DNA of 50,243 nt, taken from NCBI GenBank assembly GCA_005888095.1, contig VBKF01000112.1, positions 1 through 50,243 on the forward strand, read 5' to 3'. The translations under genes and the position numbers were made by a program. The stretch is from Deltaproteobacteria bacterium (GTDB lineage: Bacteria > Desulfobacterota > Binatia > DP-6). Every line of letters begins with the position of its first letter. The first letter of the stretch is position 1. The notes below the pieces were generated by a model. The model saw only the letters and a program-made list of their open reading frames with translations. It had not been told where the DNA came from and made no database searches. Shown here piece after piece: positions 47,076 through 50,243 of this stretch.

Positions 47076-47191
47076 GGGCGGTGGTGGTTAGGTCCTGCGC
47101 AAGAGAGCGTCGCGAACCCCGTCAGGTCCGGAAGGAAGCAGCGGTACCGACTGTCTCTCTGTGCCGCAGGGCGCCCTAGCCTCCACCGCCG
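47076..47191 (+). ncRNA. ffs: Signal recognition particle RNA, small bacterial type (4.5S)
   Basis: The universal SRP loop GGTCCGGAAGGAAGCAGC lies at 47125-47142. The long hairpin is closed by GGCGGTGG (47077-47084) with CCACCGCC (47183-47190) and by GGTTAGG (47086-47092) with CCTAGCC (47075+100 to 47181). About 115 nt is the usual length. It binds Ffh for co-translational membrane targeting. The gene lies just upstream of dnaX, as in many bacteria. Confidence 0.95.
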
Positions 47192-49795: not shown

Positions 49796-50110
49796 TCCCC
49801 GGTAGCTCAGTAGGTAGAGCGATCGGCTGTGCTCAGCGCAGCCTCATCGGGAAACCGGTGAGTGAAAAGCGGGTGAATTCAGGGAAGCCTAAGTGCGGCG
49901 CGCATACGGGAACCCTGAGCCAAGCCTTCCGAGAGCGAAGGGCGGAGGGAAGGTGCAGAGACTAGGGAGTGACGGAAGAATAATCTCCCCACGAGCGCCC
50001 GCCACCTACAGGCTGCTCGGCAGCCCAGGGTGATGAGATAGTCCACCCCCGCCGGAAACGGCGGACCGGGTGTAACCGATTGGTCGCTGGTTCGAGTCCG
50101 GCCCGGGGAG
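49796..50110 (+). tRNA. tRNA-Asn(GTT) interrupted by a group I intron
   Basis: The exons are 49796-49830 (35 nt) and 50073-50110 (38 nt). Joined, they give a standard 73-nt tRNA: acceptor TCCCCGG/CCGGGGA, D-arm GCTC/GAGC, anticodon stem ATCGG/CCGAT with loop CTGTTAA (anticodon GTT), variable loop TGGTC, T-arm GCTGG/CCGGC with TTCGAGT, and discriminator G. CCA is not fully encoded (CCT follows). The sequence is very like other bacterial tRNA-Asn. The interruption lies between the second and third anticodon bases, so no functional tRNA forms without splicing. Confidence 0.93.
49831..50072 (+). ncRNA. Group I self-splicing intron (IC3-like) in tRNA-Asn
   Basis: The 242-nt intron has the group I core. 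The 5' exon end GGCTGT pairs with the internal guide GCAGCC (49838-49843), including the U-G pair at the splice site (P1), and the intron ends in G (50072). P2 is CATCGG/CCGGTG with a GAAA loop (49845-49860). P and Q elements are GAATTCAGGGAAGCC (49875-49889) and AACCCTGAGCCAAG (49911-49924). R and S are GGTGCAGAGACTA (49952-49964) and GATGAGATAGTCC (50032-50044), whose AGACTA/TAGTC arms make P7. P9 is CCGCCG/CGGCGG with a GAAA loop (50049-50064). No homing endonuclease ORF is present. The order and motifs match cyanobacterial tRNA-Leu and Azoarcus tRNA-Ile introns. Confidence 0.93.
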
Positions 50111-50243
50111 CCTGAAGTGAGCGAGGCCGTCGGAGGCGACTCCGGCGGCCTCGGTGCTTTCAGCGAGGTCGGCGCAGCGGCACTCCGGTCGCCCCCGCGG
50201 CCTCCGTCTGGGCATCGAGCCGCAGCCCGAACCCGTCGGCCAG

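Follow-up and report, generated by a model that had tools for sequence, protein, structure and literature searches.

Group I introns interrupt the tRNA genes of bacteria in a short list of hosts. An intron is known in tRNA-Arg(CCU), and the bacterial and plastid introns of tRNA-Leu, tRNA-Ile and tRNA-Arg are presumably all of subgroup IC3, whose tRNA introns have no extra hairpin between the 5' strand of P7 and the 3' strand of P3. Group IA introns carry P7.1 (and P7.2) between P7 and P3, and we take the P7.1-bearing group I introns of phages to be IA2-like. The cyanobacterial tRNA-fMet intron reportedly goes with an endonuclease specific for the anticodon region of the tRNA (Bonocora and Shub, 2001), which we take to be I-SspI. 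For bacteria, three papers (PMC3984707, PMC8450103, PMC4033280) describe introns in the tRNAs for Leu, fMet and Ile. A free-standing endonuclease encoded in the tRNA array of T-even phages, SegB, cuts within tRNA genes, according to an excerpt of PMC13096335. As worded in 2014 in the passage on phages of PMC3984707, all phage introns observed to date lay in protein-coding genes. A search of the open-licence literature turned up no description of a tRNA-Asn gene of bacteria with a group I intron; a 2025 intron database (PMC11835236) may hold such introns unremarked.

The locus described here lies near the right end of the window, by which we mean the whole stretch of 50,243 nucleotides that was analysed. 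This window equals one complete contig (G000:C112) of a 5.46 Mb genome, assembled in 271 contigs with 100% completeness and 2.37% contamination. The original prediction placed a group I intron within the anticodon of a tRNA-Asn gene, and its coordinates and the length of 242 nt proved exact. On the forward strand, tRNA base 1 is at 49796 and G73 at 50110, with the insert between U35 and U36. The 5' exon of tRNA-Asn(GUU) (49796-49830, positions 1-35, ending ...GGCUGU) matches the joined query in 35/35 bases, the intron occupies 49831-50072, and the 3' exon (50073-50110) comprises positions 36-73 (U36, A37, A38 ... G73). CCA is not encoded, GCCT spanning G73 and the next bases. The full Rfam model RF00028 (1-253) matches 49820-50065 with 84.6 bits (E 3.5e-20) against a gathering threshold of 50, so that a covariance search, as the means of checking the prediction, returned a strong match. 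The P1 guide with U-G, GAAA-capped P2 and P9 and terminal G that it had listed as hallmarks were all located, as was a P3-P8 core with the P7 helix.

All elements of this core lie on the forward strand. The internal guide GCAGCC (49838-49843) pairs with GGCUGU (49825-49830) to form P1, which has a 7-nt loop without a nuclease ORF and places a U.G at the 5' splice site, as in 15/15 aligned rows. It is followed by the P2 hairpin with its GAAA loop (49845-49860), the 5' strand of P3 (49869-49875, partner 49996-50002), the 5' strand of P7 (GACUA, 49960-49964, partner UAGUC, 50039-50043) and a P7.1-like hairpin between P7 and P3 (49965-49989). The 5' strand of P9.0 (50045-50047) pairs with 50069-50071, and the 3' splice site is fixed by this pairing, which ends at the base before the terminal G. 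Between the two strands lies the P9 hairpin, also with a GAAA loop (50049-50064). The genes to the left of the tRNA are presumably dnaX-like, ybaB-like and recR-like; further left, between tRNA-Ser(GGA) and the dnaX-like ORF, a bacterial small SRP RNA was recognized at 47086-47184 (73 bits). A promoter and terminator scan called nothing. Just downstream of the tRNA, at 50123-50152, a hairpin of 13 pairs with a GCGA loop can be read that is terminator-like, lacks a T run and was left uncalled by the scan; comparable hairpins are readable in the flanks of the tRNA-Asn loci of relatives.

The pairing was examined in an alignment of 15 of the 18 pre-tRNAs with this intron found in the class of the genome, probably Binatia, the three with a nuclease ORF being left out. 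Counting the 78 pairs of the named structure, with the crossing P3/P7 included, 98.7% of the 1170 cells are paired, versus 37-45% when partners are slid; the structure was itself derived from these 15 rows, which biases this comparison in its favour. Changes on both sides were found in 31/78 pairs, a number reached in 0/500 shuffles (shuffled mean 14.8). P2 (6/6 pairs changed on both sides), P9.0 (3/3) and P3 (2 of 7 pairs) are 100% paired, as is P7, which is invariant, while P9 (5/6 changed on both sides) and the P7.1-like hairpin (three pairs counted, one changed on both sides) are each 97.8% paired. The anticodon stem, which forms only after splicing, is paired in 75/75 cells. Of its five pairs, three are changed on both sides, a number reached in 35/500 shuffles; counted by cell, 12 are changed on both sides, which 0/500 shuffles reach. 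In the lineage formed by the families f1 and f17 (11 rows), 679/682 intron cells are paired and eight pairs are changed on both sides, against a maximum of six in 300 shuffles. The five f1 rows taken alone give a weak signal, with three such pairs, a number also reached by shuffles.

The intron resembles those of tRNA-Leu(UAA), tRNA-Ile(CAU) and tRNA-Arg(CCU) in being a small anticodon-loop ribozyme with a U.G at the 5' splice site and a terminal G. It differs from the tRNA-Leu and tRNA-Ile introns in host tRNA and site and in its P7.1-like hairpin, which is absent from the Leu and Ile introns of the same class. The uninterrupted P7-P3 segment typical of IC3 is accordingly lacking at 49965-49989 and present in the five tRNA-Leu introns of the class, and the window copy has there a P7.1-like hairpin that may or may not correspond to the P7.1 of group IA. 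Phage introns with a P7.1-like hairpin are similar in P4/P5 and in the hairpin between P7 and P3; most of them, however, lie outside tRNA-Asn, and their resemblance in P4/P5 stems in part from the pattern used for the search.

Hosts of related introns were assigned with an Asn-specific pattern and by reading the flanks. An automatic assignment, in which all U/G splice combinations were scored with ARAGORN, accepted far too much and was abandoned. At least L197 and L166 escaped the pattern and were assigned by eye, and L190 passed it despite most of its 5' exon lying off the contig. ARAGORN in intron mode gives the labels 'Thr', 'Val' and 'Ser' to hosts read here as Asn, Ile(CAU) and Leu(UAA). 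Within the class, RF00028 matches 25/148 genomes (26 matches). By exon reading, 18 of these matches are introns at the same site of tRNA-Asn, five lie in tRNA-Leu(UAA) (L146, L147, L148, L150 and L151, the last cut by the contig end), and two (L142 and L153) are best read as tRNA-Ile(CAU) with the intron after U33. One match of 42 bits (L152, in G131) stands where no tRNA can be read.

The same site is occupied in several phyla, so the survey of the insertion site that the original prediction had proposed shows that the case is not a one-off. Asn-site introns were found in at least 8/95 genomes of Methylomirabilota (L183-L187, L190, L192, L194; L190 without most of the 5' exon), at least 2/74 of Margulisiibacteriota (L169, L170), at least 8/396 of Acidobacteriota (L195-L200, L202, L203) and, as at least one good case, among 400 of Chloroflexota (L225). 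In 395 genomes around a deltaproteobacterial MAG, a set that treats Binatia and that group as one phylum, six had a match: three are new Asn cases (L161, L166 and L167, with L166 lacking the 5' exon), two (L164, L165) are Binatia introns counted before, and one (L168) is left without an assigned host. These phylum counts are lower bounds, since the candidates scored per genome were limited (12 in the class, 22 in Margulisiibacteriota, up to 19 in Methylomirabilota, eight in the deltaproteobacterial set, five each in Acidobacteriota and Chloroflexota, and 150 in the search including G161) and a subset of the matches was examined (30/37 in Acidobacteriota, 30/43 in Chloroflexota). Phylum names were taken from the titles of the loci used as search centres.

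Further arrangements were seen in the same genomes. About 2.3 kb after L159 lies a partial second copy (L163, G161:C32:71453-71589), with the 3' end of the Asn intron and, as far as the T loop, the 3' exon of the tRNA; it resembles a trace that an element integrating in an intron-bearing tRNA gene might leave. Three Chloroflexota loci (L226, L227, L229) have Asn-like tRNA bodies with a group I intron and a 5' exon reading CGGCTCAYGGT or CGGCTCGTGGT, and for these three no simple join giving a 7-base GUU loop was found. In Methylomirabilota, a group I intron (L162/L191) sits in tRNA-Phe(GAA), apparently after U33. Introns read as following U33, 5' of the anticodon, in CAU tRNAs occur at L142 and L153 (Binatia family f2) and L172 (Margulisiibacteriota); ARAGORN labels the first two Val and the third Met.

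A tree was built from 72 intron cores (198 columns; L172 and L152 had no P4 match and L237 was skipped), with automatic alignment and long branches. The 11 introns of f1 and f17, that of the window included, form one group (support 100/99). A second lineage (99/96, 15 rows) unites the f2 and f16 introns with four from Methylomirabilota and four from Acidobacteriota, and contains the HNH-bearing L134, L137, L139, L184 and L197. The third (100/100, 9 rows) holds four other Methylomirabilota introns, four from Acidobacteriota and L161. By their core sequences, the Asn-site introns thus fall into three or more lineages, distinct from the tRNA-Leu/Ile type. The introns of tRNA-Leu, tRNA-Ile, tRNA-Phe and other CAU tRNAs group apart (99/93). 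A derivation from the tRNA-Leu intron was rejected.

In some relatives the P1 loop contains a gene for an HNH nuclease. Its ORF has a usual start codon in L137, L139, L184 and L197; the HNH frame of L170 is open with no usual start before it, that of L166 is cut by the contig end, that of L134 is frameshifted, and in L185, L186 and L167 only the 3' end of the gene is left. The window copy, with its 7-nt P1 loop, has no intron-encoded homing endonuclease and so does not itself have the make-up of a mobile intron. Seven HNH sequences align at 61-75% identity to the first. The intron HNH protein matches PHROG 2255 (HNH endonuclease) at 1.5e-31, and searches of Pfam (HNH) and NCBIfam gave sub-threshold matches only. 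The group thus parallels the cyanobacterial tRNA-fMet system, where tRNA introns likewise go with an endonuclease presumably directed at a tRNA gene, and differs from it in its host, tRNA-Asn, and in the HNH gene, borne in the P1 loop of some relatives and absent from the window copy.

A scan of IMG/VR returned 49 loci with relatives of this HNH protein, 46 of which have tRNA genes within the fetched flanks (up to 1.5 kb). After grouping of near-copies, 30 groups remained, 28 with tRNAs. A tRNA-Asn gene is nearest to the HNH gene on at least one side in 12/28 groups versus 4.19 expected when the HNH gene is placed at random among the tRNAs of the same locus (p about 5e-6, 1/200,000 simulations), a figure that shared descent of tRNA arrays could inflate and for which most loci after L275 were entered with a default HNH position. 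Where a viral HNH locus contains tRNA-Asn, the two are adjacent in 12/13. Model R1, run on the 49 loci, gave a best score of 16.1 bits (E 0.08) and no R1-type intron above that, and Rfam, run on 20 of the 49, found no group I intron over the cut-off. These genes recall SegB as putative endonuclease genes in phage tRNA arrays; they differ in encoding an HNH protein, in lying beside tRNA-Asn in particular and in having intron-borne relatives.

Viral introns were sought in IMG/VR with a pattern for the Asn-type P4-P5, which yielded 79 stretches (viral labels being the assignment of IMG/VR); 32 of these were scored with model R1, with a best score of 79.9 bits. Three of the 79 were flagged for an Asn-like 3' side, among them L336, whose 5' exon is unfit for Asn. 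In L329, on a contig of 469,617 bases, a 197-nt intron lies between the same bases of tRNA-Asn(GUU), and the join scores 122.6. Six ORFs of this contig were scanned, and four match PHROG families; for one of the four the match, with two tape-measure families, is weak. In L351 the 5' exon lies off the contig, and an intron is present together with an Asn 3' exon and an HNH frame that stays open as far as the contig end. Viral tRNA group I introns were also read at L316, L336 and L374, in tRNA-Lys(UUU) (two) and a CAU tRNA (one), ARAGORN agreeing for L316 only; L306 and L337 are group I introns with flanks resembling the T arm of tmRNA. L329 and some of these other viral tRNA introns differ from the statement in the 2014 passage that phage introns lie in protein-coding genes (PMC3984707).

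Joined after ...GGCUGU and before UAACC, the exons give tRNA-Asn(GUU) with an ARAGORN score of 126.1, in line with the claim that they form a good tRNA. Splicing two bases earlier on both sides would give CUUGUAA and a tRNA-Thr(UGU), which ARAGORN scores at the same 126.1, so the program, which found no tRNA in the unspliced gene, cannot decide between the two registers. With introns allowed it even calls Thr(tgt) at several loci, and a U before the intron and a G at its end are available at either junction. The threonine register, however, leaves the observed P1 without a U.G at the splice site and cuts into P9.0, whose 3/3 pairs covary as far as the base that precedes the terminal G in the asparagine register. 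In f2, f16 and other groups the intron ends read TCG|TAA or TTG|TAA, from which no UGU would result after the shift. Thr is already served in the genome by tRNAs UGU, GGU and CGU, and there is no other tRNA for Asn. In each of six genomes fetched for comparison, the empty-site gene is Asn(gtt) with GGCTGTTAACCG; these genes share 74, 74, 74, 73, 72 and 64 of 75 bases with the joined exons; three related genomes thus have an uninterrupted tRNA-Asn(GUU) with 74/75 equal bases. The U.G in P1, the covariation of P9.0, the ends of the other introns and these six genes together settle the register, and the threonine product was rejected as wholly improbable; judged from these comparisons, the spliced product would be tRNA-Asn(GUU).

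It is also very unlikely that the insert is a decayed intron and the locus a pseudogene, with asparagine supplied by a second tRNA gene missed in the assembly. The original prediction had made dependence on the ribozyme conditional on this being the only tRNA-Asn gene. RF00005 gave 41 other tRNA genes, all with assigned anticodons and none of them Asn, and a search with the joined tRNA returned its own two halves and nine weaker matches only, the best of which belong to genes for tRNA-Lys and tRNA-Phe; the four that rank next contain no tRNA according to ARAGORN. Across the whole genome, RF00028 has a single intron match. The assembly, being a fragmented MAG, has gaps, since uninterrupted genes for Leu(UAA), Ile(GAU), Ala(UGC) and Gly(CCC) were likewise not found among the 41, and a second tRNA-Asn may have been missed in the same way. 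Decay, on the other hand, agrees poorly with 78/78 standard pairs in the window copy and with compensatory changes kept within the f1/f17 lineage. Moreover, five f1 genomes that are at least 99% complete all carry the intron, the two f1 genomes without it being 80 and 82% complete, one with no tRNA-Asn match and the other with one weak match (E 1.8e-6). Across the class, at least 110/148 genomes have a full-length match to the joined tRNA (at least 73/75 positions, 80-99% identity; anticodons checked in six of the 110) among the matches listed, to E ~1e-9, and none of the 18 carriers is among them. Such genomes can seem to lack tRNA-Asn, because ARAGORN missed the gene and because, as the authors of tRNAscan-SE 2.0 state in an excerpt of their paper, group I introns hide tRNAs from that program (PMC8450103). 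If this is indeed the cell's only tRNA-Asn gene, growth would depend on ribozyme splicing.

How the introns came to share one site is the remaining question, and an old intron inherited vertically without mobility, its site shared by common descent, is an improbable answer for the whole set. Such descent would suit the f1 and f17 introns, which form one clade, all lack a nuclease and, in f1, keep recR synteny. The gene recR lies upstream of tRNA-Asn in 4/4 f1 relatives, 2/6 f17 loci, 4/4 f2 carriers and 7/7 tested Methylomirabilota carriers, a common order that also fits descent; in the other 12 loci tested, the fetched flanks showed no recR. Among 80 loci with a RecR neighbour, no intron was found by ARAGORN in 20 or by Rfam in 13; the genome of one of these loci without an intron (L040) has an Asn intron elsewhere. 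The families, however, are unequally occupied: carriers make up 5/7 genomes in f1 and 6/6 in f17, and the distribution is patchy elsewhere (4/16 in f2, 3/25 in f16). Against descent also stand the two lineages with different P7.1 regions at the same site within Methylomirabilota, the HNH frames open in some members and reduced to remnants in others, and the rejection of one clade for all Asn introns (AU p 1e-34, to be read with caution because the alignment suffers from long branches and from variable P7.1 regions). Different lineages repeatedly at one site are what homing predicts.

We therefore put the probability at roughly 0.87 that the one tRNA-Asn(GUU) gene detected in this assembly is interrupted by a group I ribozyme belonging to a set of introns that occupies this site in several phyla and was probably spread by homing. 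The pre-tRNA-Asn would be transcribed as one RNA, in which the guide GCAGCC would pair with GGCUGU of the 5' exon; an external guanosine would attack after the U of the U.G, and once the terminal G is cut away, the exons would be joined to CUGUUAA. By analogy with known group I introns, this self-splicing chemistry is expected to operate in this cell. Homing into tRNA-Asn genes, presumably driven by the HNH protein, is the probable route by which the set spread, although the window copy itself is without an endonuclease, and phages were perhaps among the carriers. In the f1/f17 lineage, the nuclease appears to be absent or lost and the intron to be now stably inherited. More tentatively, and with somewhat less than an even chance of being right, an HNH homing-endonuclease family may have specialised on tRNA-Asn(GUU), free-standing next to tRNA-Asn in the tRNA arrays of phages, and intron-borne, within the P1 loop, in bacterial tRNA-Asn; phages, whose own tRNA-Asn can carry the intron (L329), would ferry it between phyla, and loss of the nuclease would leave whole families dependent on the ribozyme for every AAC/AAU codon.

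A group I intron in a tRNA gene is of a known kind; apparently new are the host tRNA, the P7.1-bearing core, the recurrence of the site in several phyla and the link to viral HNH genes. The finding adds a host tRNA and a site, occupied in several phyla, to a short list, and the tRNA concerned, apparently encoded by a single gene, serves both codons for asparagine. A bacterial tRNA intron is also connected here with nucleases of viral tRNA arrays, and ideas on how tRNA introns arose and spread can thereby be put to the test. If the proposed dependence is true, splicing could be a control point on translation.
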